From an uncultured Bradyrhizobium sp. (lineage in GTDB: Bacteria > Pseudomonadota > Alphaproteobacteria > Rhizobiales > Xanthobacteraceae), in contig NZ_CANSMR010000011.1 in assembly GCF_947648125.1 (NCBI RefSeq), positions 175,466-239,465 on the forward strand: a stretch of DNA of 64,000 nucleotides, given 5' to 3'. The position numbers and the translations under genes were made by a program. A model generated the notes under the pieces. That model was not told the origin of the DNA. It saw only the letters and a list, made by a program, of their open reading frames with translations, and made no database searches. Below, one piece after another: positions 1,135-14,246 of the stretch (positions are counted from its first letter, which is position 1; every line of letters starts with the position of its first letter).

Positions 1135-1695
1135 TTAGGCGACAGGATTGTAGGTCGGGCCGCGCTTCGCAGCGTTCAGCGCAGCCGTCAAAGCTTTGGA
1201 AAAGCTTGCTTTTTCGTCCGGGCCCAGGAAGCTGCCGACGCTGACCCGGCGGCCCCGGGACACCAGATAAAGCCGCTCGATGCCGAATTCTTCATGCGAG
1301 ATCTGTTCGAACCGCACCCAGAGCGGATTGAGCACCCATTCCGCCACATGGCCGCGGTGACTGATCCTGCGCACCCGCAGTTCCGACGGTGTGACGGTGA
1401 TCTCTTCGCTCGCCTTGGCAGTGCGGAAATTGACCTTGAACGCCCAGTAGATCACCAGCGCGTCAAGACCGAAGAAGCCGAAGATCGGCCAGGCGCCCAG
1501 CCACCAGAACACCGCGCCGGCGATGAAGCTGACCACCGTGACGAACGACATCAGCACGATGAAGCCGGTGCGATTCAGCGATCGATGCGGCGTCAGCAGC
1601 GCCGAGAACAATTTCGGCTCCGCCTCGGGCGCATCGACGTCGAGGTCATTGGCCCTGGGGTCTTCGCCCGGATCAAAGTCGTTGCCTGCGGTCAT
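1135..1695 (-). CDS. DUF2244 family integral membrane protein
   Basis: 186 residues with two adjacent hydrophobic segments (about residues 43-63 and 68-87) followed by a soluble C-terminal domain. The family pattern of DUF2244 is recognisable: a short helical hairpin, then a conserved stretch around VTPSELRVRR and a WV-LNP motif. Function unknown. The start codon lies head to head with nth: CAT at 1693-1695 overlaps a possible ATG of nth at 1694, so whichever nth start is used there is no room for a promoter between them and each must be transcribed from inside the other. In many alphaproteobacteria DUF2244 genes sit next to nth (recalled). Confidence 0.85.
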   Translation of the reverse strand: MTAGNDFDPGEDPRANDLDVDAPEAEPKLFSALLTPHRSLNRTGFIVLMSFVTVVSFIAGAVFWWLGAWPIFGFFGLDALVIYWAFKVNFRTAKASEEITVTPSELRVRRISHRGHVAEWVLNPLWVRFEQISHEEFGIERLYLVSRGRRVSVGSFLGPDEKASFSKALTAALNAAKRGPTYNPVA

Positions 1696-1717
1696 GACGT
1701 ATCAGTATATCCCGTTC

Positions 1718-2494
1718 ATGGCCAAAATCATCCGCTCTCAACGCGCCAACACCTCAAGCGTTCGCTCCGCGCCGAAGAAGAAGGCCGTGAAAGCGGCAAC
1801 ACCGCAGCCCAAGCGCGCGGCAAAGAAGCCGGCCGCCAAGAAGGCCGCAAAACCAAAGCCATGGACGGCGGAGGAGGTCTACGAGGCCTTCGACCGGTTC
1901 CGCAAAGCCAATCCCGAGCCGAAGGGCGAGCTCGAGCATCTCAATCCCTACACGTTGCTGGTTGCGGTGGTGTTGTCTGCGCAGGCGACCGATGCCGGCG
2001 TCAACAAGGCGACGCGAGCGCTGTTTGCGATCGCCGACACGCCGGAGAAGATGCTTGAGCTCGGCGAAGACAGAGTGCGCGATTACATCAAGACCATCGG
2101 GCTCTATCGCAACAAGGCCAGGAACGTCATCGCGCTGTCCGAGAAGCTGATCGCCGAATTCGGCAGCAAGGTGCCGCGCACCCGCGCCGAAATCGAATCG
2201 TTGCCCGGCGCCGGCCGCAAGACCGCGAATGTCGTGCTCAACATGGCGTTCGGCGAACACACGATGGCGGTCGACACCCATGTGTTTCGCGTCGGCAACC
2301 GCACCGGTCTCGCGCCCGGCAAGACGCCGCTCGAGGTCGAGCTGGGATTGGAGAAGGTGATCCCGACGGAGTTCATGCTGCACGCCCATCACTGGCTGAT
2401 CCTGCATGGCCGCTATACTTGCCTCGCCCGCGGTCCGCGTTGCGACGTATGCCTGATCAATGACCTTTGCCGGTGGCCGGAGAAGACCGTCTGA
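1718..2494 (+). CDS. nth: Endonuclease III (DNA glycosylase/AP lyase)
   Basis: 258 residues from ATG 1718. Removes oxidised pyrimidines and cleaves the abasic site in base-excision repair. The helix-hairpin-helix LPGAGRKTANVV carries the catalytic Lys, VDTHVFRV carries the catalytic Asp, and the C terminus has the four-Cys iron-sulphur cluster spaced C-x6-C-x2-C-x5-C. The first 45 residues are a Lys/Ala-rich basic tail not found in the 211-residue E. coli enzyme; such tails are usual in Bradyrhizobium. An ATG at 1694 in frame would add eight residues and overlap the start of the divergent DUF2244 gene. Confidence 0.95.
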   Translation: MAKIIRSQRANTSSVRSAPKKKAVKAATPQPKRAAKKPAAKKAAKPKPWTAEEVYEAFDRFRKANPEPKGELEHLNPYTLLVAVVLSAQATDAGVNKATRALFAIADTPEKMLELGEDRVRDYIKTIGLYRNKARNVIALSEKLIAEFGSKVPRTRAEIESLPGAGRKTANVVLNMAFGEHTMAVDTHVFRVGNRTGLAPGKTPLEVELGLEKVIPTEFMLHAHHWLILHGRYTCLARGPRCDVCLINDLCRWPEKTV

Positions 2495-2562
2495 GCCATG
2501 ATCATCATCATGTGGTAAGTGACGCGCCCGGCGTTCGGCGCGTGTGATTGAGGGAGTGTGGT

Positions 2563-3714
2563 GTGGCAGAGCAGGTTCAAGACGGTCCGTCACAAGTCAG
2601 CCAGACCGCGTCCGCACCAGTGACAACACCAGCCAAGCCGCAGCCTGCGGCGAGCGGCTTCTGGGGCCGTTTCGCCATCCCGCTGTTCGCGGTGCTGGCT
2701 GCGCTTGTGTTCGTCGCGGCGGCGACCACGCATTGGGACGCCTGGGTCGGCAGCGCCACCATCCAGACCACCAACGATGCCTATGTGCGCGCCGAGTTGA
2801 CCCAACTCTCGAGCCGCGTGTCCGGCGAAGTGCTCACGGTTGCTATCTCCGATTTCCAGCGCGTCAAGGCCGGCGATCTGCTGGTGCAGATCGATCGTGC
2901 CGACTATCAGGCGCAGGTCGCGCAGGCCGAGGCGGGAGTGGTCGGCGCGCAGGCCGCGCTCGATAACCTCAACAACCAGGTCGAGCTGCAATATGCGACC
3001 ATTGCGCAGGCCGAGGCCTCGCGGTTGTCCGCGGAGGCGCAGCAGACCCTGGCACGCCAGGAGCAAGAGCGTCAGCAGTCGCTGTCGCAAACCGACGCCG
3101 GCACGCGGCAGCGGCTCGAGCAGGCCACCGCATCCTATGCCAAGTCGGAGGCCGACGTGCAGGCCAGCCGTGCGGTGATCGCAGCGCAGCGCCATCAGCT
3201 CGAGGTCCTGCAGGGCACCAAGAAGCAACGCGCCGCCGATCTCGACGCAGCCAAGGCGCTGCTGGCATCGGCCAGGCTCAAGCTTGGCTACACCAGGATC
3301 GCCGCGCCGTTCGACGGCGTCACCGGCGAGCGGCAGGTGCAGCCGGGCGATTACGTCAACATCGGCACCAATCTGATCAACGTCGTGCCGCTGCCGAACG
3401 TCTATGTGATCGCCAACTACAAGGAAACCCAGCTGACCAACGTCAAGCCGGGTCAGCCGGTCGAAGTCACCGTGGATACATTCTCCGGCCAGAAGTTGCG
3501 CGGCGTCGTCGAGCGCATCGCGCCGGCAAGCGGATCGCAATTCGCGCTGCTGCCGCCCGACAACGCCACCGGCAATTTCACCAAGGTGGTGCAGCGCATC
3601 CCGGTGCGCATCCAGTTCGACAAGGACCAGCCGTTGCTTGCGCGCCTGCTGCCGGGCATGTCGGTGGTGACGCGGATCAACACCGGCGAGGCGGTCGCCA
3701 ATGGCGGAAAATGA
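2563..3714 (+). CDS. HlyD/EmrA-type membrane fusion protein
   Basis: 383 residues from GTG 2563, chosen because agggag lies six bases upstream; a TTG at 2548 has none. One transmembrane helix (about residues 27-50) anchors the protein, followed by a split biotinyl-lipoyl domain, a long alpha-helical coiled-coil hairpin rich in Gln/Ala/Glu (about 95-215), and a beta-barrel region ending in a NYKETQL motif typical of EmrA. It bridges an inner-membrane pump to the outer membrane. The next gene, an EmrB-type transporter, starts inside its 3' end (14-base overlap), so the two are co-translated as an efflux pair. Confidence 0.92.
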   Translation: MAEQVQDGPSQVSQTASAPVTTPAKPQPAASGFWGRFAIPLFAVLAALVFVAAATTHWDAWVGSATIQTTNDAYVRAELTQLSSRVSGEVLTVAISDFQRVKAGDLLVQIDRADYQAQVAQAEAGVVGAQAALDNLNNQVELQYATIAQAEASRLSAEAQQTLARQEQERQQSLSQTDAGTRQRLEQATASYAKSEADVQASRAVIAAQRHQLEVLQGTKKQRAADLDAAKALLASARLKLGYTRIAAPFDGVTGERQVQPGDYVNIGTNLINVVPLPNVYVIANYKETQLTNVKPGQPVEVTVDTFSGQKLRGVVERIAPASGSQFALLPPDNATGNFTKVVQRIPVRIQFDKDQPLLARLLPGMSVVTRINTGEAVANGGK

Positions 3715-5329
3715 CGACCGTAACAGCGGCCCGGTCTCGCGCGGCGACGTCGCGCGCTATCCGGTGTTCGCCGTCGTTGCCGTGCTGCTCGGCGCGTTCC
3801 TGGCGAATTTCGACAGCCGCCTGACCTCGGTCGGCCTGCCCGACCTGCGGGGCGCGTTCTCGCTCACCTTCGACGAGGGCGCCTGGCTCTCGACCGCGGC
3901 GATCGGCTCGCAGATCTTCATCGCGCCCGCGGTGGCCTGGCTCGCCACCGTGTTCGGCCTGCGGCGTGTGCTCGGCATTCCGAGCCTGGTCTATGCCGTG
4001 ATCTCGCTGATCATCCCGTTTGTGCATGACTACACGACGCTGATCGCGCTCAGCATCGCCCACGGCATGCTGCTCGGCACCTTCGTGCCGGCGACGCTGA
4101 TGATCATCTTGCGCAACCTGCCGATCCGCTGGTGGCTGCCGGCGATCGCGATGTATTCGATCCGCGTCGGCTTCGCGCTGGATTCGTCGAGCTCACTGGT
4201 CGGCTTCTATGTCGAGCACCTCGGCTGGCAGTGGCTGTACTGGCAGGGCGTGGTGGTCGCGCCGCTGATGGGTTTGATGGTGTATCTCGGCACGCCGAAC
4301 GAGCCGGTCAATCGCGACCTGCTGCACCATGCCGATTGGGGCGGCATGCTGCTGCTCGGCGCTGGTCTGGGGATGGTTTATGCCGGGCTCGATCAGGGCA
4401 ACCGGCTGGACTGGCTGTCGTCGGGCACCGTGATGGCGCTCCTGATAGGGGGCGGGCTGTTGATCATCGCCTTCATGATCAACGAGACGGTCGCGCGCCG
4501 GCCGTGGGCGCATTTCAACGTGCTGTTCTCGCGCAATATCGGGCTCTCGCTGATCGTCATCCTCTTGTACACGCTGACCAGCCTGTCGAACTCGTCGCTG
4601 GTGCCGAACTTCCTCGGCGCCGTCGGCGTGCTGCGGCCGGAGCAGTCGGGCGCGCTGCTGTTCAGCTACGGTGCACTGCCGATGTTCGTGCTGGTGCCGA
4701 TCTCGATTGTCCTGTTGCGTCACTTCGATCCGCGCATGGTCGTGGTGCTCGGGTTCTCGGCATTCGCAGCCGCCAATCTCTGGGGCACGCAGCTGAGCCA
4801 TGTCTGGGCACGCGAGGATTTCGTCGGCATCGTCCTGCTTACGTCGATCGGGCAGGCGCTGACGCTGCTGCCGATCATCATCATGGCGCTGTCCAATTCC
4901 GACCCGTCGCGCGCGACCGCGTTCGCGGCTTATATCCAGATCATGCGGCTCGGCGGCGCCGAGATCGGCATCGCCCTGATGGGCACCTGGCTGCGCGTCC
5001 GCGAGCAGATCCATTCGAATTATCTCGGCCAGCACGTCCAGAACGGCGACGTCGACGTCGTCAACCTGCTGAAGCGGCTGGCGGGTGAATTTTCCGGCCA
5101 CGGCATCGGGGCGGCGACGGGACGTGCCATCGGCACGCTCGCGGCCCTCGTGCAGCGCGAGGCCAACACGCTCGCCTACATTGACGGCTTCTGGCTGTGC
5201 TTCTGGCTCGCGATCCTGGCGCTGTTCCTGGTCGCCTTGATCACGCGTGCGCCGCAAGGTCCGCTGTCGCCGGTGCCGCTTGGCTTTGTGAAGAACGTGC
5301 TGCGCAAGCCGGACGCCGCCGCGTCCTGA
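3701..5329 (+). CDS. DHA2-type MFS efflux transporter (EmrB-like)
   Basis: 542 residues, about 14 hydrophobic segments, ATG overlapping the end of the HlyD gene. The pairing with an EmrA-like adaptor and the 14-helix size place it in the DHA2 drug:H+ antiporter group. The N-terminal helix contains NFDSRLTSVGLPDL, a divergent form of the usual D-x-TIVNVALP motif of this group, so the substrate may differ from classical EmrB. Proton-driven export through a tripartite channel is inferred. It ends 146 bases before the polyketide synthase gene, on the same strand, and could export that product, though the third gene of that operon is also an exporter. Confidence 0.88.
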   Translation: MAENDDRNSGPVSRGDVARYPVFAVVAVLLGAFLANFDSRLTSVGLPDLRGAFSLTFDEGAWLSTAAIGSQIFIAPAVAWLATVFGLRRVLGIPSLVYAVISLIIPFVHDYTTLIALSIAHGMLLGTFVPATLMIILRNLPIRWWLPAIAMYSIRVGFALDSSSSLVGFYVEHLGWQWLYWQGVVVAPLMGLMVYLGTPNEPVNRDLLHHADWGGMLLLGAGLGMVYAGLDQGNRLDWLSSGTVMALLIGGGLLIIAFMINETVARRPWAHFNVLFSRNIGLSLIVILLYTLTSLSNSSLVPNFLGAVGVLRPEQSGALLFSYGALPMFVLVPISIVLLRHFDPRMVVVLGFSAFAAANLWGTQLSHVWAREDFVGIVLLTSIGQALTLLPIIIMALSNSDPSRATAFAAYIQIMRLGGAEIGIALMGTWLRVREQIHSNYLGQHVQNGDVDVVNLLKRLAGEFSGHGIGAATGRAIGTLAALVQREANTLAYIDGFWLCFWLAILALFLVALITRAPQGPLSPVPLGFVKNVLRKPDAAAS

Positions 5330-5475
5330 TTTGCGAACGGGGAGGCGCGGGTATCGCCGGCGGCCTGGCGCTACCGGGTCAATTTATAGTGAATGCGGCG
5401 CCCCCAGCTATCTCGCGGGCGTCTGAAATATTTTGCACGTGGCGTGGTTCCACAAACGGGGGAACTGGAGCCACG

Positions 5476-6537
5476 ATGATCGAGACCAGGCAGACGGCCG
5501 CGCTTGTTTCCATGGCGACGGCGGTTCCACCGCATCTGTTCCATCAGGGACAAATCCTGCAGGCCGCGCACGACCTTCTCGCCGACCGCTATCCCGAGTT
5601 CGAGACGCTCTCCAGCCTGTTCGCCAACACTGGCATCCAGCATCGCTACGGCGTGAAGCCGATCGAATGGTATCTCGAACGGCGCGGCTGGCCGGAGCGG
5701 ACGCAGGCGTTCCTGGAAGGCGCGGAGGCGCTGTTCGTCGATGCCGCCCGCAAGGCGCTTATGCGTGCCGACCTGACCGGCCGCGATATCGATGTCGTGG
5801 TCACAGTCTGCTCAACGGGCATCGCCACGCCGACGCTGGAGGCGCGCGTCGCCGGCCAGCTCGGCCTGCGGACCGATGTGTCGCGCGTGCCGGTGTTCGG
5901 CCTCGGCTGCGCGGGCGGCGTGTCGGGCCTGTCGATCGCGGCGCGGCTGGCGCAGGCGCAGCCGGGTGCGAATGTGCTGCTGGTCGCGCTCGAGCTGTGC
6001 ACGCTCGCGGTTCGTCACGATGAGCTCACCAAGGCGAATATCGTCGCGGCCAGCCTGTTCGGCGATGGCGCCGCGGCGATCGTGCTGCGCGCCGGCGACG
6101 GCGGTGCGACTCGGATCGAGGCGACGGCAGAAAAGCTGTGGCCGGATACGCTCGGCATCATGGGCTGGACGGTCGATCCGGAGGGATTCGGCGTCGTCTT
6201 CCAGCGTACCATTCCGGATTTCGTCCGCGACCATGTTGGACCGGCCGTTGCCGATATCCTGGCACGAATGGAGCTGACGGCCGATGATATCGACCGCTTC
6301 CTCTGCCATCCCGGCGGCACCAAGGTCATCGCCGCACTGGAGCGGGCGCTCGCGCTCGATCAGGGCACGCTCGATCACGAACGCGACGTCATCGCGGCTT
6401 GCGGCAACATGTCGGCCCCGACGGTTCTCTTTGTTCTCGAACGCGCCCGCGCCAAGGGCTTGCCGCCGCGCTCGCTGCTCACGGCACTCGGGCCCGGCTT
6501 CACGCTCAGCTGCGTCGCGCTCAGGCACGCGGCATGA
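5476..6537 (+). CDS. Type III polyketide synthase (chalcone/stilbene synthase family)
   Basis: 353 residues from ATG 5476, preceded by ggag at 5467-5470. A homodimeric ketosynthase that extends an acyl-CoA starter with malonyl-CoA and cyclises the chain. The catalytic triad is visible: Cys145 in GLGCAGGVSG, His278 in FLCHPGG, Asn311 in CGNMSAP. Bacterial relatives of this subgroup make long-chain alkylpyrones or alkylresorcinols (e.g. Bacillus BpsA). The stop overlaps the start of the next gene (ATGA, 6534-6537), a methyltransferase-like membrane enzyme, the same pairing as bpsA-bpsB. The product here is inferred, not shown by the sequence. The 146 bases upstream hold an AT-richer patch (tttatagtg near 5382) that may be a promoter. 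Confidence 0.92.
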   Translation: MIETRQTAALVSMATAVPPHLFHQGQILQAAHDLLADRYPEFETLSSLFANTGIQHRYGVKPIEWYLERRGWPERTQAFLEGAEALFVDAARKALMRADLTGRDIDVVVTVCSTGIATPTLEARVAGQLGLRTDVSRVPVFGLGCAGGVSGLSIAARLAQAQPGANVLLVALELCTLAVRHDELTKANIVAASLFGDGAAAIVLRAGDGGATRIEATAEKLWPDTLGIMGWTVDPEGFGVVFQRTIPDFVRDHVGPAVADILARMELTADDIDRFLCHPGGTKVIAALERALALDQGTLDHERDVIAACGNMSAPTVLFVLERARAKGLPPRSLLTALGPGFTLSCVALRHAA

Positions 6538-7046
6538 GCCTCGCTTCGGTCATCCTTGCGCTGGTCACCTTGCAGCGTCTCGGCGAGCTCGTGCTGTCGC
6601 GTCGCAACACGGAGCGGCTGCTGGCGCGCGGCGCGATCGAGGTCGGCGCCGGTCACTATCCGCTCATTGTGCTGGTTCACGCCGGCTGGCTGATCGCGCT
6701 GTGGATGTGGGGCCGCAACCAGGATGTCAACCTGGCGATGCTCGCGGCCTTTCTGTTGCTGCAAGGCCTGCGGCTGTGGATCCTCGCCGCGCTCGGGCCG
6801 CGATGGACCACGCGGATCATCGTCTTGCCGGGCGCGCCGCTGGTCGCATCCGGGCCGTACCGATATTTTCCGCATCCAAACTATGCGGTCGTCGTCGGTG
6901 AGATCGCGCTGCTCCCGCTCGCACTGCATCTGCCGGTGCTGGCGCTGATCCTCACCTTGCTCAATCTCGCGGTGCTTGCGATCCGGATTCGTGCCGAGAG
7001 CCATGCTCTCTCGGTTGCGGACTGGCCGCGCGTCAGCACGCCATGA
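6534..7046 (+). CDS. Isoprenylcysteine carboxyl methyltransferase-family membrane protein
   Basis: 170 residues with about five hydrophobic segments. The family signature is present near the C-terminal half: GPYRYFPHPNYAVVVGE, where HPNY and the following Glu form the S-adenosylmethionine-binding region of ICMT-like methyltransferases. In Bacillus, BpsB of this family O-methylates the alkylpyrones made by the adjacent type III synthase; the ATGA overlap with the synthase gene here suggests the same division of labour (inference). Its own stop overlaps the start of the MFS gene by four bases. Confidence 0.88.
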   Translation: MSLASVILALVTLQRLGELVLSRRNTERLLARGAIEVGAGHYPLIVLVHAGWLIALWMWGRNQDVNLAMLAAFLLLQGLRLWILAALGPRWTTRIIVLPGAPLVASGPYRYFPHPNYAVVVGEIALLPLALHLPVLALILTLLNLAVLAIRIRAESHALSVADWPRVSTP

Positions 7047-8611
7047 GCGACCGGGCGGAGCATCGCTCCGACAGCCCGTCGGCGGCGATCTGGGCAGGCT
7101 TCCTCCTGATGTGCTTCGGCATGTTCATGGCGATCCTCGACATCCAGGTCGTCGCGACCTCGCTGCCGACGATCCAGCGCGCGCTGGGGATTTCGCCTTC
7201 CGCGATGAGCTGGATCCAGACCGCCTATCTGATCGCGGAGGTGATCGCGATCCCGCTGACCGGACTGTTCACCCATGCGCTGTCGCTCCGATGGCTGTTC
7301 GCGATCGCCGTGAGCCTGTTCACCGTCGCCTCGGTCGGTTGCGCTTTCAGTGGCGGCTTTGCCGTGCTGCTGGTCTTTCGCGTGCTGCAGGGATTTTCCG
7401 GCGGCGTCCTGATCCCTGCGGTGTTCTCCGCCGTGTTCACGCTGTTTCCGGCACGGCTCCATGCGGTGGCGACCACGATCGGCGGCGTCGTCGCGGTGCT
7501 CGCACCGACCGTTGGACCGGTCGTCGGCGGCTGGATCACGCAGACCTGGTCGTGGCCGTGGCTGTTCCTGATCAACCTCGTTCCAGGAACGATTGCGGCC
7601 ACGGTCACGCCGCTGCTGCTTCCGAAAGAGAGCGTGAATCTCCGCGCGTTTGTCAGACTGGACACATGGTCGCTGGCTCTGCTCGCAGCGGCGCTCGCAA
7701 GCTTCATGATCGGTTTGAAGGAAGCGCCGCAGCGCGGCTGGGTCTCGATGCTTTGCCTGAGCCTGCTGATCGGAAGCATTGCCGGGATGGCGCTGCTGAT
7801 CCGGCGCACGCTCCGCGCGGCGTATCCGATCGCGCGATTGAACTTGTTCAGGCGGCGTTCGTTCGCGATCGGCTGCGCCCTGAGCTTCTGCCTCGGCATC
7901 GGCCTGTATGGATCGACCTATCTGATGCCGGTGTTCCTCGGCTTCGTCCGCCGCCATGATGCCTTCGAGATCGGCACCATCATGCTGGTCACGGGGGTTG
8001 CACAGCTGATCGCTGCGCCGCTCGCGGCAATCCTCGAAAGCCGCGTCGGCGCGCTCTTGTTGACTGCGACAGGCTTCGTCTTGTTCGCGCTCGGTCTCGG
8101 ACTGAGCGCCTTTCAGCCGCGCACGGCGGATTTCGGCGAGATGTTCTGGCCCCAGGTCGTGCGCGGTGTCGCGATCATGTTCTGCCTGCTGCCGCCGACG
8201 CGGATTGCGTTGGGCACCCTGCCGGAGGCGGAGGTTGCCGACGCCAGCGGATTGTTCAACCTGATGCGCAATCTGGGTGGCGCGATCGGGATCGCCTTGA
8301 TCGATACCATCCTCTATGGGCGAAGCCCGATCCATGGCGAGGCGTTTCGTGCGCGCCTGCTGGCGGGAGATGTCACGGCGGCACAGGCAATCGGGCTCGA
8401 TCCGAGATTGCTGATCGACCGTCCGCCGGGTCCGCCTGATGACGCGACGGTGGCGTTCATCCGGCCGCTGGTCGAGCGGGCGTCGCTCGCACTCAGCGTC
8501 AACGAGGCATGGGCGATGCTCGCCGGCGTGGCGGTCGCCGGGCTTCTGCTGGTGTTATTCGCGCGCGATCGGGCGCCTGCATCGCTGCCGGTGCCTCGGG
8601 ATGCGAGCTAG
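7043..8611 (+). CDS. DHA2-type MFS transporter, last gene of the polyketide operon
   Basis: 522 residues, about 14 transmembrane segments. The first helix has DIQVVATSLPTIQ, the DHA2 signature form (D-x-QVV/TIV-x-x-ALP), and motif C-like glycine/proline spacing (LAPTVGPVVGG) typical of antiporters follows in helix 5. It starts with ATGA overlapping the methyltransferase stop, so it belongs to the same transcript and probably exports the methylated polyketide (inference). Its TAG stop shares the palindrome CTAG with the stop of the convergent gene at 8608. Confidence 0.9.
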   Translation: MSDRAEHRSDSPSAAIWAGFLLMCFGMFMAILDIQVVATSLPTIQRALGISPSAMSWIQTAYLIAEVIAIPLTGLFTHALSLRWLFAIAVSLFTVASVGCAFSGGFAVLLVFRVLQGFSGGVLIPAVFSAVFTLFPARLHAVATTIGGVVAVLAPTVGPVVGGWITQTWSWPWLFLINLVPGTIAATVTPLLLPKESVNLRAFVRLDTWSLALLAAALASFMIGLKEAPQRGWVSMLCLSLLIGSIAGMALLIRRTLRAAYPIARLNLFRRRSFAIGCALSFCLGIGLYGSTYLMPVFLGFVRRHDAFEIGTIMLVTGVAQLIAAPLAAILESRVGALLLTATGFVLFALGLGLSAFQPRTADFGEMFWPQVVRGVAIMFCLLPPTRIALGTLPEAEVADASGLFNLMRNLGGAIGIALIDTILYGRSPIHGEAFRARLLAGDVTAAQAIGLDPRLLIDRPPGPPDDATVAFIRPLVERASLALSVNEAWAMLAGVAVAGLLLVLFARDRAPASLPVPRDAS

Positions 8612-9360
8612 ATCGAGGATACGTTGCTTCGCCGCGCCGGCTCGATCAGTTCGCGCCGCGGGCCTGACAGCCGCTTGTACATGTGCACCATGAACGCCAT
8701 CCCGAACAGCGGCGTCGCCAGATTGACGATCGGGATCGAGACGAAGGCGGCGATGAACAGGCCGGCGGTAAACACGGTCGCCGCATTCTCCTTGCGCATC
8801 GCCTTGGCGTCATCAGGCGAGCGGAAGCGCATCGCGGCGAGCTCGAAATATTCGCGGCCGAGCAGCCAGGCGGTCGCGATGAAGAAGATGATGAAGCCCG
8901 CGCCCGCGAACAGCACGAACGGTAGCGCGACGAGGTAGACCAGGACCGTCAGCAGCGCCGTCTTGACGCCCTCGATGGTCGCGAGCGTGACCGGCAGCGC
9001 CGTGCCGGGATGGTCGGCCGGATAGTGCTCGCGCTCGACATGATCGGCGACGTCGTCGACGAACAGGCTCGCCACCAGCGAGGTGATCGCGGGCATCAGG
9101 AAGATGCCGCCGAGCACGACGCCGAGGCCCGCCGAGATCGAGATGATCCAGGACAGCACGTGCAGGGTGGAATGGAAGTTGGGGCCGAGCATGCCTTCGG
9201 CCCAGACCTCGCCGGTGTCGGCAAACCAGCTCAGCAGTCGCTGCAATCCGATTGCCAGCACGGTGATCAGCACCAGCGCAAGCCCGATCGAACGCCACAG
9301 GATCGTGCGCATCGGCGGCGACAGGATTTGCGAAAGCGCCTTGACGGCGGCGTCGAACAT
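8608..9360 (-). CDS. EI24/CysZ-like integral membrane protein
   Basis: 250 residues from ATG 9360. Several long hydrophobic helices, with the EI24-family features: an early amphipathic stretch around MRTILWRSIGLALVLI, an aromatic-rich central membrane segment and a conserved LLGREYFELAAMR motif. CysZ of this family carries sulphate in enterobacteria; many alphaproteobacterial members have no proven substrate, and there are no cysteine-synthesis genes near here. It converges on the polyketide operon, with the last four bases (CTAG) shared by both stop codons. Confidence 0.85.
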   Translation of the reverse strand: MFDAAVKALSQILSPPMRTILWRSIGLALVLITVLAIGLQRLLSWFADTGEVWAEGMLGPNFHSTLHVLSWIISISAGLGVVLGGIFLMPAITSLVASLFVDDVADHVEREHYPADHPGTALPVTLATIEGVKTALLTVLVYLVALPFVLFAGAGFIIFFIATAWLLGREYFELAAMRFRSPDDAKAMRKENAATVFTAGLFIAAFVSIPIVNLATPLFGMAFMVHMYKRLSGPRRELIEPARRSNVSSI

Positions 9361-9442
9361 GACCGGGTTACCTCTGCAAAATGACGTGCGAGAGGTAGCC
9401 ACCCAATATGGCTTCGGCAAGTGCCGCTTGTGTCGCGGTCAC

Positions 9443-9507
9443 AGCGTTTTCGAGCGAAGTCCGCCCGCATTTAATGCGGGGTCCACGCCGGTTCGCGTCA
9501 AGAAAGC
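9443..9507. repeat. Interspersed repeat, cgttttcgagcgaag...ggttcgcgt family, with an inserted hairpin
   Basis: The outer parts gcgttttcgagcgaagt and ccggttcgcgtcaagaaagc match, in opposite orientation, the repeat at 55996-56039 and more loosely 49951-49996. In this copy the centre contains an extra perfect hairpin, cccgcat-tta-atgcggg at 9464-9480. Lying just past the stop of the MFS gene on the minus strand, the hairpin may help terminate its transcript, although no T run follows. Confidence 0.65.
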
Positions 9508-9508
9508 T

Positions 9509-10921
9509 TCAGGCGTCGAGCGGCTTGCCGCGGACGTTGGGTCCCCAGACACCGATCGTAATAATTACGATCACCATCGCCGCGGTGATCAGGCCGAACA
9601 CCCCGCTGACGCCGGCCTCCTTCAACATGAAGGCCACGATGAAGCCGGAGAAGGTCGCGCTGAGCCGGCTCATCGAATAGACGAGGCCCGCCGCGCGGGC
9701 CCGGATCGCGGTCGGGAACACCTCGGTCTGGTAGGCGTGATAGGCGTAGGACAGCGTCATGTTGGCGCCGGTCACCAGCACGCCGCTGGCGATCAGGAGC
9801 ACCGGCTCGGTGAGCTGCGCGAAGGCAAGGCCGAACACCGAGATCGCGGCGGCCGCGCCGCAAATGATCCATTTGCGCTCGAAGCGGTCGGCGAAGGTTG
9901 CGGCCAGCAGCGGCGCGAGCGGATAGGCGAAGGCGATGATGAAGGAATATTGCAGGCTCTTGGTGACGTTGATGCCCTTCTGAACCAGGAGCGCCGGAAC
10001 CCAGTTGGAGAAGCCGTAGACGCCGAACGCCTGGCACAGATTGAAGATCATGAAGAGCACGACGAGCGAGGCGTAGGGCGGCCGGAACAAATCGGCATAG
10101 CCGGTCTCGACCGCCGCACGTGCCGGCGCCATTACGGCTTTAACGGCAGGGCGCGGTGCGCCCGCAGGCGATGAGGCCTCGAGCCTCCGCATGATTGTCT
10201 CGGCCTCGGCAAGGCGGCCATGCCGGGCCAGCCAGAGCGGGCTTTCCGGCACGTAGAGCCGCAGCACCCAGATGATCATGCTGGCGGCGGCACCGATCAG
10301 CACCACCCAGCGCCAGCCATCGATGCCGTAAGGCGAGAGCGGCACCAGCCACCACGACAGCGCGGCGACGATCGGCACCGCCGAGAGCATGACGGCCTGG
10401 TTGATCGCAAAGGCGCGGCCGCGCATCCAGCTCGGCACCAGCTCGGTGATGTAGGCGTCGATGGTGATGACCTCGATGCCGATTCCGATTCCGGCGATGA
10501 AGCGCCACAGCAGCACCCCGCCAGGGGTGGTCTGGCACGCCATGATCACCGACGCCGCGCTGTAGAACAGCAGCGAATAAGTGAAGACGGCCTTGCGCCC
10601 GTAGCGATCGGCGAGGAAGCCGAGGCAGAAGGTGCCGATGAACAGGCCGGCGAAGGTCGCCGCGACGAAGGCGCCGATCCCGGAAAAGCCGAAGAAGGCC
10701 TGTGTCGTCGTGGTCATCAGCCCGCTGCGGGCGAGGCCCGGCGCGATATAGCCGGTGAAGAACAGATCGTAGATTTCGAAGCAGCCGCCGAGCGAGAGCA
10801 GAATCACAAGCCGCCAGACATAGCCTGAGGTGGGCAGCGCCTCGAGGCGCCGCGAAATCTCGTCCGGCCCGGCTGTCGTGTTGGCAAGATCGGCAACCGA
10901 GCCGAGTTCGACGGCGCTCAT
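9509..10921 (-). CDS. MFS transporter, metabolite:H+ symporter type
   Basis: 470 residues from ATG 10921, behind a good ribosome site (ggaggacc at 10932-10925 on the minus strand). Twelve predicted helices; the loop after helix 2 has GFLADRYGRKAVF and the helix-6 border has the sugar/aromatic-acid porter pattern PESPLWLARHGR. Members transport aromatic acids, dicarboxylates and related organic acids inward. It lies 155 bases downstream of a LysR gene on the same strand and close to a CoA-transferase and HMG-CoA-lyase-type gene, so it is probably the uptake step for the acid those enzymes consume (inference). A candidate operator lies upstream at 11017-11039. Confidence 0.9.
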   Translation of the reverse strand: MSAVELGSVADLANTTAGPDEISRRLEALPTSGYVWRLVILLSLGGCFEIYDLFFTGYIAPGLARSGLMTTTTQAFFGFSGIGAFVAATFAGLFIGTFCLGFLADRYGRKAVFTYSLLFYSAASVIMACQTTPGGVLLWRFIAGIGIGIEVITIDAYITELVPSWMRGRAFAINQAVMLSAVPIVAALSWWLVPLSPYGIDGWRWVVLIGAAASMIIWVLRLYVPESPLWLARHGRLAEAETIMRRLEASSPAGAPRPAVKAVMAPARAAVETGYADLFRPPYASLVVLFMIFNLCQAFGVYGFSNWVPALLVQKGINVTKSLQYSFIIAFAYPLAPLLAATFADRFERKWIICGAAAAISVFGLAFAQLTEPVLLIASGVLVTGANMTLSYAYHAYQTEVFPTAIRARAAGLVYSMSRLSATFSGFIVAFMLKEAGVSGVFGLITAAMVIVIITIGVWGPNVRGKPLDA

Positions 10922-11016
10922 GATGGTCCTCCCCGAATGCTCCAGCGGCCGCCTTTCTTGCGAAGGCGTGCCGGTTGCGCATGTTTGGCAGCCGGGTGCC
11001 AGAAATCCAGACGAAC

Positions 11017-11039
11017 ATATCGAAGGAATCGTTCGATAT
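11017..11039. promoter_or_regulatory. Inverted repeat, candidate LysR-type operator upstream of the MFS gene
   Basis: atatcgaa at 11017-11024 and ttcgatat at 11032-11039 are perfect inverted arms of eight bases around seven. A further ttcgata follows at 11041-11047. The site lies between the LysR gene end and the MFS start, about 95 bases upstream of the MFS ATG. The spacing fits the T-N11-A inverted repeats bound by LysR-family proteins; which protein binds is inferred. Confidence 0.5.
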
Positions 11040-11076
11040 TTTCGATAGCGCTGTTTCTGACGTGCTTGAAAGCGCT

Positions 11077-12000
11077 TCAGATCAAGAGCGTCGCCTCCCA
11101 CGCGCCGCGCCCGACCTGTTCGGCGATCAGGGAGCGGATCAGCCGGCACATCTCTTCCATCGCATAGGTCATCGGCCGGTTGCGCAAGCGGCAGAGATAG
11201 AGCGTCCGGCTCAGCCTGGGTTCGATCACCTCGCGTGCGACCAGCGATCGCGCTTTCAGCGGCTCGCTGACGAAGTGCGTCGTCGCGATCGTGCAGCCGA
11301 GACCCGCGGTCAAGGCGCCGATCATGCCGCTGGTCGAATTGAGGTGCAGGATGGCATTGGCCTCCAGCCGTTTCAGCGGCACGGGGTCGTCCAGCAAAGC
11401 GCGAGCCGACAGCCCGTGCCGCAGCAGGATCAGCGGCAGCTGCGCCACCTGTTCGAACGTGATCGGTCCCTTCTTGCCGATCAGCTTCTCGGTGCCGACG
11501 CAGAACATCTGCTCCTCCAGCACCGGCTCGGCGATCAGGTCCTTTTCCGACGGCGGATTGTAGACCAGCGCGAGGTCGACATCGGAGCTCATCAAATGCA
11601 GCAGCGTCGCGCCGGAGAGACTCTCGGTCAGCGACAGCTTCAGGTTCGGATATTTCGCCAGCACGGTCCGCATCAGCGGCACGCCGATCGCCTTCATGCC
11701 GGAATTGGCCATGCCGATCGAGATCTCGCCGGCAATTGCGCTGCCGCCTTCCTTGATCTCGCGCTCGGCCGCCGCCATCGCGCGCAGGATGATGCGGGCA
11801 TGCTCATAAAGCCGCTCGCCCGCCGCGGTCGGTTCCATGCCGCGCGGCTTGCGCTCGAACAGCGGCGTGGCGAACTCCGCCTCGAGATTGGCGATGTGGT
11901 GACTGAGCGCGGATTGCGCGACATTGGCCTGATCCGCCGCCCGCGACAGGTTGCGCTGCTCGTAAACCGCGATGAAATAGCGAAGCTGGCGTGAATCCAT
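11077..12000 (-). CDS. LysR-family transcriptional regulator
   Basis: 307 residues from ATG 12000. Residues 1-60 are the winged helix-turn-helix (MDSRQLRYFIAVYEQ, then AAxQANVAQSALSHHIANLE), and the rest is the two-lobed effector-binding domain. It is closest in look to the CynR/NAC-like group that respond to small organic acids. It is divergent from the CoA-transferase gene (121 bases apart) and 155 bases upstream of the MFS gene, so it probably controls both sides of this catabolic locus. Confidence 0.92.
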   Translation of the reverse strand: MDSRQLRYFIAVYEQRNLSRAADQANVAQSALSHHIANLEAEFATPLFERKPRGMEPTAAGERLYEHARIILRAMAAAEREIKEGGSAIAGEISIGMANSGMKAIGVPLMRTVLAKYPNLKLSLTESLSGATLLHLMSSDVDLALVYNPPSEKDLIAEPVLEEQMFCVGTEKLIGKKGPITFEQVAQLPLILLRHGLSARALLDDPVPLKRLEANAILHLNSTSGMIGALTAGLGCTIATTHFVSEPLKARSLVAREVIEPRLSRTLYLCRLRNRPMTYAMEEMCRLIRSLIAEQVGRGAWEATLLI

Positions 12001-12010
12001 TGTGGTTCTG

Positions 12011-12038
12011 CGTTCTAGAACGACGAATGCACTATTCG
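12011..12038. promoter_or_regulatory. Two inverted repeats in the LysR / CoA-transferase divergent promoter region
   Basis: cgttctagaacg at 12011-12022 is a perfect 12-base palindrome, and cgaat-gcact-attcg at 12024-12038 is a second inverted repeat. Both lie 11-38 bases upstream of the LysR start and about 85-110 bases upstream of the CoA-transferase start, where an autoregulating LysR protein would bind. The arms resemble, but do not equal, those at 11017-11039 (shared core TTCG). Confidence 0.45.
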
Positions 12039-12121
12039 ACAGATTATATTTTTCAGATAGCGTGCGGAAGCCTAACCTGCGCCGATCAGTCAAAACGAGC
12101 GCAACGAGCACGGAGAAACCG

Positions 12122-13291
12122 ATGACCGGGAGCGGACTGCCGCTGGAAGGCGTGAGGGTCGTCGAGATGACCCACATGGTGATGGGGCCGACCTGCGGGA
12201 TGATCCTGGCGCAACTCGGCGCCGAGGTGATCAAGGTCGAACCTCCTGCCGGCGACAAGACCCGCTCGCTCGGCGGCATGGGCGTCTCGTTCTTCCCGCT
12301 GTTCAATCGCGGCAAGCGCAGCGTCGTGCTCGATCTCGCCAAGCCCGAGGACCGCGACACCATGCACCGGCTGCTCGCGAGTGCCGACGTGTTCCTGGAG
12401 AATTTCCGCGACGGCCAGCTCGACAAGCAGGGTCTTGGGCCCGAGGAGCTGCGCGCGAAATATCCGCATTTGATCATCGCCGGCCACAAGGGCTTTCTGT
12501 CCGGCCCCTACGATCATCGCCCGGCGCTCGACGAGGTCGTGCAGATGATGTCGGGGCTCGCGGCGATGACCGGCACAAGGGAGAAGCCGCAGCGCGTCGG
12601 CTCCTCCGCCAACGACATCATGGGCGGCATGTTCGGCGTGATCTCGATCCTCGCCGCGCTCTACCAGAAGCGGGGCGGCAACAGGGGCGGCGCCGACATC
12701 CGCATCGGCCTGTTCGAGAACTGCCTGTTCCTGGTCGCCCAGCACATGGTCGAGTACGAGATGACCGGGCGCAAGCCGCGCTCGATGCCGGAGCGTGAGC
12801 ATGCCTGGCCGATCTACGACATCTTCGATGCCGCCGGCGGCGACCGTATCTTCATCGGGGTCGTCACCGAAGGCCATTGGCAGAGCTTTTGCCGCGAGTT
12901 CGGACTGACGGAATTCGCCGACGATCCGACGCTGCGCTCCACCACGGACCGCATCATGGCGCGCGACCGGATCATTCCGCGCGTCGCCGAGGTGATCAAA
13001 GGCTGGAACGTGGCCGACCTCTCGGCCAGGCTCGACGCGCTCAACATCTGCTTCTCGCCGATCAACCGGCCGGAGGATCTGCTGCAGGACCCGCATGTGC
13101 TGCGGCCCGGCGGGCTCGTCAACACCATCAATGCCGACGGCAAGCCGTTCCGCGTTCCGGCGCTGCCGGTCGAATGGAACGGCAGTAATATCGGCGAAGG
13201 CCTGAAAGTGCCGGTGCTTGGCGCCGATACCGATGCGGTCCGCGCCGAGCTCGCACAACAGAAGATTTCATCAACCGGAAACGCTGCGTGA
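12122..13291 (+). CDS. Class III (CaiB/BaiF-family) CoA-transferase
   Basis: 389 residues from ATG 12122, behind ggag. The N-terminal region has GVRVVEMTHMVMGPTCGM and the EVIKVEPPAGD motif of family III CoA-transferases, which move CoA between carboxylic acids through aspartyl-CoA intermediates. At the position where formyl-CoA transferase, CaiB and AMACR have the catalytic Asp (x-D-x-x-M/L), this protein seems to read I-R-I-G-L (near residue 196), so Arg replaces Asp if the by-eye alignment is right. It is followed after seven bases by an HMG-CoA-lyase-type gene, suggesting that the CoA ester formed is the lyase substrate. Confidence 0.88.
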   Translation: MTGSGLPLEGVRVVEMTHMVMGPTCGMILAQLGAEVIKVEPPAGDKTRSLGGMGVSFFPLFNRGKRSVVLDLAKPEDRDTMHRLLASADVFLENFRDGQLDKQGLGPEELRAKYPHLIIAGHKGFLSGPYDHRPALDEVVQMMSGLAAMTGTREKPQRVGSSANDIMGGMFGVISILAALYQKRGGNRGGADIRIGLFENCLFLVAQHMVEYEMTGRKPRSMPEREHAWPIYDIFDAAGGDRIFIGVVTEGHWQSFCREFGLTEFADDPTLRSTTDRIMARDRIIPRVAEVIKGWNVADLSARLDALNICFSPINRPEDLLQDPHVLRPGGLVNTINADGKPFRVPALPVEWNGSNIGEGLKVPVLGADTDAVRAELAQQKISSTGNAA

Positions 13292-13298
13292 GGCTGAC

Positions 13299-14246
13299 AT
13301 GACCCGCGTCCACGATATCTATCCCAACGACAAGGTAAGTTTGCGCGAAGTCGGCCTGCGCGACGGCCTGCAGCTCGTGAAGACATTCCCGTCGACCGCG
13401 GCGAAGCAGCGCTGGGTGCGCGACGAATATGCGGCCGGCGTCAGGCATTTCGAGGTCGGCTCGTTCCTGCCGGCCAAGACCTTTCCGCAATTCGTCGATG
13501 TCCGCGATGTCATCGCGACCATTGCCGCGCTGCCCGGCGCGCATGGTGTCGCGCTGGCGCTGAACGAACGTGGCGTCAACGAGGCGCTGGCCTCCGGCGT
13601 CGCCGAGATCGCCTCGGTGGTGTCGGCGACCGAGGAGCACAGCCAGGCCAATGCCAACCGCTCGCGCGAATCGGCGATCGCGAACATCAAGCGTCTCTGC
13701 GAGCTGCGCGACGCCAGCGCGCACAAACCGCTGGTCAATGCCGCGATCTCGATGGGGCTGGGCTGCTCGATCGTCGGCGCGGTCGATCCGAAGGAGGTGC
13801 TGCGCCTCACCGAGAAGCTCTACGAGGTCGGCGTCGACATGGTCGCGATAGCCGATACCGTCGGCTATGCCGGGCCGAAGCAGGTCGGCGAGCTGACGCG
13901 CGGAGCGGTGAAGATCGCCGGCTCCAAGCCGGTTTGCGTCCATCTGCACGACACCCGCGGCATGGGTATCGCCAACGCCTCCGCGGCGCTCGATGAGGGC
14001 GCCCGCGTGCTCGACGGTTCGCTCGGCGGCCTCGGCGGCTGCCCGTTCGCGCCGGGCGCCACCGGCAATGTCGTGTTCGAGGACCTCGTCTTCCTCTGCG
14101 AGAGCAAGCGATTTCCGACCGGCATCGATCTCGACCGCCTGGTCGAGGTGCGCGCGATCCTGAAGGCCGAGATGCCGAATGAGCAGCTCTATGGCGGCCT
14201 CGCCCGCGCCGGCCTGCCCCGCGGCACCAAGGCGAAGGCGGCGTAG
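13299..14246 (+). CDS. Hydroxymethylglutaryl-CoA lyase-type enzyme
   Basis: 315 residues from ATG 13299. TIM-barrel of the HMGL-like family: N-terminal LREVGLRDGLQ carries the metal-binding Arg-Asp pair, HLHDTRGMG carries the metal-binding His residues, and GGLGGCPFAPGATGN contains the signature Cys in the active-site loop. HMG-CoA lyase splits 3-hydroxy-3-methylglutaryl-CoA to acetoacetate and acetyl-CoA at the end of leucine breakdown. Here there is no isovaleryl- or methylcrotonyl-CoA gene nearby; the partner is a CoA-transferase, so free hydroxymethylglutarate or a related hydroxy acid may be the starting compound (inference). Confidence 0.9.
   Translation: MTRVHDIYPNDKVSLREVGLRDGLQLVKTFPSTAAKQRWVRDEYAAGVRHFEVGSFLPAKTFPQFVDVRDVIATIAALPGAHGVALALNERGVNEALASGVAEIASVVSATEEHSQANANRSRESAIANIKRLCELRDASAHKPLVNAAISMGLGCSIVGAVDPKEVLRLTEKLYEVGVDMVAIADTVGYAGPKQVGELTRGAVKIAGSKPVCVHLHDTRGMGIANASAALDEGARVLDGSLGGLGGCPFAPGATGNVVFEDLVFLCESKRFPTGIDLDRLVEVRAILKAEMPNEQLYGGLARAGLPRGTKAKAA

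Follow-up and report, generated by a model that had tools for sequence, protein, structure and literature searches.

The 64,000-nucleotide stretch of DNA from an uncultured Bradyrhizobium that was analysed here (hereafter the window; positions 175,466 to 239,465 of contig NZ_CANSMR010000011.1) carries three overlapping genes, coding for a type III polyketide synthase (PKS), a protein resembling the isoprenylcysteine methyltransferases (ICMT) and a transporter of the major facilitator superfamily (MFS). The locus raises the question of whether these constitute a single pathway that both makes and exports a lipid, and which of the surrounding genes belong to it. A first-pass annotation had proposed such a pathway by analogy with BpsA/BpsB of Bacillus, possibly extended by the EmrA/EmrB pair just upstream. 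Our analysis favors a BpsAB-type operon for an aliphatic polyketide, with a coupled exporter, a reading to which we assign a probability of about 0.75. The analogy, the single operon and the conserved gene order of the earlier proposal stand, as does the MFS protein as likely exporter, a role assigned from gene linkage only, whereas the part given to EmrA/EmrB does not. Papers are cited below by their PMC accessions.

Families and residues of the synthase and methyltransferase

The three genes and both of the 4-base ATGA overlaps that join them lie exactly at the coordinates first assigned to them (Table 1). The synthase matches PF00195 (73.6 bits) and PF02797 (51.9 bits; cut-off 27 each) and has Cys145, His278 and Asn311 at the positions earlier read as its catalytic triad, which is kept in 136/136 relatives (132 distinct). 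Judged by these domains and residues, it is a type III PKS; in the window genome, PF00195 and the window methyltransferase each find a single match (E ≤ 0.001). The closest solved structure to the synthase is PKS11 of Mycobacterium tuberculosis (phmmer E 3.6e-52; profile E 8.5e-76), whose Trp230 aligns with Trp231 of the window synthase. This Trp is likewise kept in 136/136 relatives (132 distinct) and occurs in six of seven more distant synthases, the exception (L204) having Leu. The 195 Bradyrhizobium genomes searched also hold a distinct group of synthases, 31-37% identical to the window synthase; six loci of this separate family (L200-L205, ~35% identical) gave no match to the window ICMT or MFS in the regions read, and one of them, L204, adjoins two inverted copies of a transposase-like frame.

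The methyltransferase matches PF04140 with 84 bits against a cut-off of 24, and the HPNY motif of the first-pass annotation is present at residues 114-117, preceded by RWTTR at residues 90-94. An alignment of 45 such methyltransferases has 28 invariant columns, including R90-W-T-T-R94, H114-P-N-Y117, E123, R151 and E155. A profile of the family matches the solved ICMT 4a2n (E 7.7e-6); the single sequence searched against the PDB gave no match at E ≤ 1. Because it scores 20.8 bits against NF040696, the curated model for true protein-S-isoprenylcysteine O-methyltransferases, below the cut-off of 160, we class it with the BpsB-like enzymes of ICMT fold and not with the isoprenylcysteine enzymes.

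A constant pair and a frequent third gene

The order of the genes was followed in named genomes, with the best 80 of 125 relatives kept, a sample biased to close kin. Conservation of the synthase-methyltransferase order, on which the earlier proposal had been staked, is complete: the methyltransferase directly follows the synthase in 79/79 readable loci with a spacing of -4 to +18 bases (L061, which ends at a contig end, is excluded), and the two genes share the 4-base overlap in 67 of the 77 fully readable loci. The MFS gene is next in 52 of the 76 loci readable to that point, four being cut by contig ends. With loci grouped by taxon from their record titles (our own grouping), it is next in 32/32 readable Bradyrhizobium loci, including two alphaproteobacterial metagenome-assembled genomes (MAGs) placed by similarity, and in 28 of these 32 it again overlaps by 4 bases. 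Both junctions thus recur in relatives, which excludes their origin by chance. The MFS gene is also next in 8/8 Reyranella-like loci, in 9/14 other loci and in 3/12 loci of a Rhodobacterales group (one with the MFS in two frames, L075; one member an unplaced MAG). Since the pair is constant while the MFS gene is next in 52/76, the PKS-ICMT pair is the core and the exporter a frequent third member. The synthase finds 101 plasmid records (E ≤ 1e-30), of which 45 are from Rhizobium, and the methyltransferase finds 17 (E ≤ 1e-15), of which 2 are from Rhizobium; the three genes occur together and in order in R. lusitanum and Rhizobium sp. BG4.

Inheritance as a block

Within the genus, a synthase orthologue (at least 68% identity; listed by hand) is present in 57 of 195 genomes, matching in pieces in two of them (G033 and G049). 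All 33 orthologue regions first read have PKS-ICMT-MFS, with the MFS in two matched pieces in L174. The cassette lies between nth and an EI24-like gene in 22 of the 33; the other 11 have no nth or EI24 match. Of five further regions, three (L244-L246) have the MFS and two (L242 and L243) lack it, so that it is the third gene in 36 of the 38 regions read, the other two having been chosen because the MFS was missing. The same slot can be seen empty of the cassette: 20/20 regions with EmrB but no synthase, chosen around EmrB from 72 EmrB-only genomes, show nth-EmrA-EmrB-EI24 (the 66 genomes with neither gene were outside this reading). This present/absent comparison shows that the three genes are present or absent together, as a single block.

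The three proteins of the cassette, PKS, ICMT and MFS, have correlated distances (r 0.92-0.93; 54 loci, 52 distinct, L187 being dropped because its best match fell under the score limits). At the nth slot, the synthase distances also follow those of the flanking genes (PKS-Ada r 0.95, PKS-Nth 0.88, PKS-EI24 0.93), to the degree seen among the flanks themselves (0.88-0.93; 44 loci, 42 distinct, given without a significance test). A recent horizontal arrival at this locus is therefore not supported, and the most economical account has the cassette long present and repeatedly lost, with copies elsewhere. One genome has two synthase and MFS copies of equal score ~300 kb apart (G145:C1 2738280 and 3038329).

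The transporter and the case for export

The third protein matches PF07690 and scores 359.9 bits against TIGR00711 (cut-off 230.2), the model for DHA2 drug:H+ antiporters of the EmrB subfamily. A simple threshold count of its hydropathy profile gives 10 clear peaks; the DHA2 family is known for 14 membrane helices. Its linkage to the synthase makes it the likely exporter of the product. Across the genus, the MFS matches listed fall into two groups, 61 from 60 genomes that are at least 63% identical and the next at 45% or less, and among these matches, compared by eye, 55 of the 60 close-MFS genomes have a synthase orthologue. An MFS 66-67% identical to that of the window also occurs in a different synthase cluster, in genome G159. 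This cluster (L206 5492-10248) consists of a type III synthase (31% identical), a class I methyltransferase, a flavin adenine dinucleotide (FAD) oxidoreductase and the MFS; its gene content is like that of the hid-type clusters and its gene order is another.

The most serious competitor holds that the MFS is a general drug pump conferring resistance, or a mere co-resident, and that the pathway comprises only synthase and methyltransferase, its lipid staying in the membrane like the alkylresorcinols of Azotobacter cysts. DHA2 pumps are commonly multidrug pumps, and the match to TIGR00711 suits such a role, as do the 24 of 76 readable loci in which the pair is kept with no MFS next to it, two of which have an MFS on the opposite strand (in L090 a 61% identical one beside the synthase, in L088 a distant match). 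What speaks for a dedicated partner instead is the constancy and overlap of the MFS gene in the named Bradyrhizobium loci, the presence or absence of the cassette as a block, and the recurrence of this MFS with a second, different synthase cluster. We consequently regard the drug-pump account as unlikely, although it is the best placed of the alternatives.

Several observations weigh against the operon with a coupled exporter. The MFS is not obligatory, being absent from the next position in 4/4 Nitrobacter, 9/12 Rhodobacterales-group and 6/6 sphingomonad loci. The methyltransferase is not obligatory either: 43 of the 45 synthase-bearing Rhizobium plasmid records have no methyltransferase match at E ≤ 1e-15, which means that the synthase can exist alone. 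Four relatives of the MFS (63-66% identity, in G194, G020, G075 and G127), which the drug-pump account can also claim, stand at a secDF-like locus, where the regions read show no synthase near them. Two Bradyrhizobium genomes (G041 and G137) have the PKS-ICMT pair and no close MFS. Finally, no product is linked to any member within these results. A transporter bound strictly to the synthase is ruled out by the four unlinked relatives together with G041 and G137. The secDF-like locus (L229, L230, L231 and L232) adjoins LysM/peptidase-like, ATPase-like and secD/secF-like genes, these names being from our own reading. The pair in G041 is followed on the same strand by an adaptor and an RND-type pump frame (L242 90-7175; again named by us), and in G137 (L243) an adaptor-like match was the only one seen near it; the exporter may possibly have been exchanged at these two loci.

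The predicted product

Under the operon with a coupled exporter, the synthase would load a fatty acyl starter on Cys145 and extend it with a few malonyl, or perhaps methylmalonyl, units, and cyclization would yield an alkylpyrone or an alkylresorcinol/resorcylic acid. The ICMT-like enzyme would then use S-adenosylmethionine to methylate an oxygen of the ring at the membrane. The MFS, whose translation would be coupled on the same message, would export the methylated lipid from the cytoplasm or the inner leaflet in exchange for protons.

The ring could be of either the pyrone or the resorcinol type. The Trp230 position of PKS11 has been linked to resorcinol formation; the enzyme itself was deposited as an alpha-pyrone synthase and is elsewhere grouped with resorcinol formers (PMC5916927), and the corresponding position has been described as Trp281 in ArsB (PMC6274091). 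Trp231 as proof of a resorcinol is nevertheless ruled out, since the Rhizobium etli and Bacillus velezensis enzymes carry the Trp too, which makes it common to enzyme types reported as pyrone makers. RpsA of the alphaproteobacterium Rhodospirillum centenum is reported to form dimethylpyrones and/or dimethylresorcylic acids with methylmalonyl units (PMC6274091), implying that both ring types are possible from one enzyme.

A further alternative is that small starters such as acetyl-CoA give a soluble polyketide, for instance a heptaketide pyrone, which the methyltransferase and pump would then handle. The synthase of R. etli plasmid p42d is 60.0% identical to that of the window, with identical triad and Trp, and by species and name is probably RePKS, which is reported to condense acetyl-CoA with six malonyl-CoA into a heptaketide pyrone but also to accept C4-C18 acyl-CoA (PMC6274091). 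The p42d gene (L233 7998-9050) moreover stands alone, with no methyltransferase or MFS match in 17 kb (E ≤ 1e-3), unlike the window synthase, and the membrane-bound substrates of ICMT-type enzymes fit a soluble product poorly. We judge this alternative improbable, more so than the drug pump.

EmrA and EmrB as neighbors

EmrB matches (E ≤ 1e-150) are present in 114 of the 195 genomes; 42 genomes have both EmrB and the synthase, 15 the synthase only, 72 EmrB only and 66 neither. A unit of five genes, in which EmrA-EmrB and the cassette would jointly serve biosynthesis and export, can draw on EmrAB being adjacent to the cassette, on its upstream side in 12 of the 33 regions and on its downstream side in 2, and on a weak co-occurrence (odds ratio 2.57 and Fisher p 0.0065, without correction for kinship), but is very improbable given that 72 of the 114 EmrB genomes have no synthase and 15 of the 57 synthase genomes no EmrB match, that EmrAB fills the slot without the cassette in all 20 such regions read, that 8 of the 22 slot cassettes have no EmrAB alongside, and that EmrB and the synthase lie 146 bases apart, with one terminator-like match (5362-5380) between them. 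EmrAB is a neighbor and not part of the unit, and the export role suggested for it in the first-pass annotation is not supported.

Layout of the locus

Table 1. The cassette, its junctions and the flanking genes, in window coordinates
Feature	Position	Strand	Remarks
Type III polyketide synthase, 353 aa	5476..6537	+	ATG at 5476, stop ends 6537
ICMT-like (BpsB-like) integral-membrane methyltransferase, 170 aa	6534..7046	+	ATG at 6534
DHA2-type MFS transporter (EmrB subfamily model), 522 aa, likely product exporter	7043..8611	+	ATG at 7043
ATGA start/stop overlap, synthase to methyltransferase	6534..6537	+	
ATGA start/stop overlap, methyltransferase to transporter	7043..7046	+	
EmrA-like periplasmic adaptor, neighbor outside the unit	2548..3714	+	True start uncertain
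EmrB-like MFS permease, neighbor outside the unit	3701..5329	+	
nth (endonuclease III) frame, left slot edge	1523..2494	+	Start uncertain; synteny; name read from protein
EI24/CysZ-like membrane protein, right slot edge	8608..9420	-	Synteny; name read from protein

A promoter scan of 2400-9500 found no sigma-70-like sites (shuffles mean 0.9); the same interval holds 9 terminator-like matches, compared with an average of 3.8 (sd 2.1) in shuffled sequence. Adjoining the slot, at 9509-14246, are an MFS of another type, a LysR-type regulator and CoA-transferase-like and HMG-CoA-lyase-like frames (from our own reading of the proteins), possibly a catabolic cluster.

Implications

Tentatively, and at rather less than even odds, we propose that the Alphaproteobacteria made a secretion cassette out of a synthase-ICMT pair for membrane lipids, the MFS clade being a dedicated exporter of methylated alkylpyrones or alkylresorcinols that was recruited by at least two type III synthase clusters, that of the window type and that of the G159 type. 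If so, the product would act outside the cell, for example as a signal or an antimicrobial. Known lipids of the type III polyketide class have effects on biofilm and sporulation in Bacillus (PMC5686519) and occur in the cyst coats of Azotobacter (PMC6274091), and one mycobacterial cluster has ABC transporter genes downstream (PMC5916927); the excerpts of the cited literature contain no tests of exporters for such lipids. A small, conserved and overlapping three-gene unit in nodule and soil bacteria offers a direct test bed for lipid secretion, in which the present/absent comparison separates the likely partner, the MFS, from the neighbor, EmrAB.

A role specific to Nod-independent symbiosis is not supported. 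The relatives include B. embrapense, B. tropiciagri and B. pachyrhizi, which we take to be nodulating species of another clade. Further, BRADO0151 of Bradyrhizobium ORS278, listed as a type III synthase, is likely the orthologue of the window synthase, in part by its position (a 76% identical synthase lies at 165172-166215 in genome G179, which has its EmrB elsewhere), and Tn5 mutants in BRADO0151 and two other genes were unaltered in symbiosis (PMC3899966). The 2011 gene set for this kind of symbiosis had come from subtracting one genome, USDA110 (PMC3899966).

Comparison with known systems

The closest parallel is bpsA-bpsB of Bacillus, for which several triketide pyrones and minor amounts of resorcinol are reported (PMC5686519). 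Direct alignment to a B. velezensis pair bears out the analogy drawn at the outset. The BpsA-like frame is 35.4% identical to the window synthase (297 positions, over the open part of the frame only), and the BpsB-like protein is 37.3% identical to the window methyltransferase, with HPNYAVV in both. Gene order, families, catalytic residues, HPNY and the Trp at synthase position 231 are all shared, and the pair differs from the window in that no MFS follows it. We presume this pair to be bpsA-bpsB from its place beside the dynamin gene, the record annotating only the methyltransferase. In that record (L237 2400-4498, from the B. velezensis AP3 plasmid), the ICMT-dynamin stretch is preceded by the synthase-like frame, which is unannotated and open only in its later part. 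Methylation by the Bacillus enzyme and by Streptomyces SrsB is named in reference titles of PMC5916927.

The other operons that join a synthase to a methyltransferase stand further off. The three-gene pks10 operon of M. smegmatis gives products that are O-methylated and oxidized to quinones (PMC5916927), whereas the window operon has no oxidoreductase. The cyanobacterial hidABC and planctomycete methyltransferase-oxidoreductase-synthase operons, whose product is an alkylresorcinol, likewise pair the two enzymes but have a different order and add an oxidoreductase, unlike the window operon (PMC10896814). The term 'MFS' is absent from that paper, and 'transporter' is used once, for another gene. 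A FAD oxidoreductase of the srs, pks10 or hid type is not found in the window operon, whose third gene is the MFS and whose flanks are EmrB and the membrane-protein gene. Among the open-licence papers listed, none describes the three-gene unit in its title or the opening of its abstract, and none was found that joins type III polyketide synthase, isoprenylcysteine and major facilitator, which is weak evidence of novelty. The window operon belongs to a pathway of known kind, that of BpsAB, and its main new feature is the coupled exporter.

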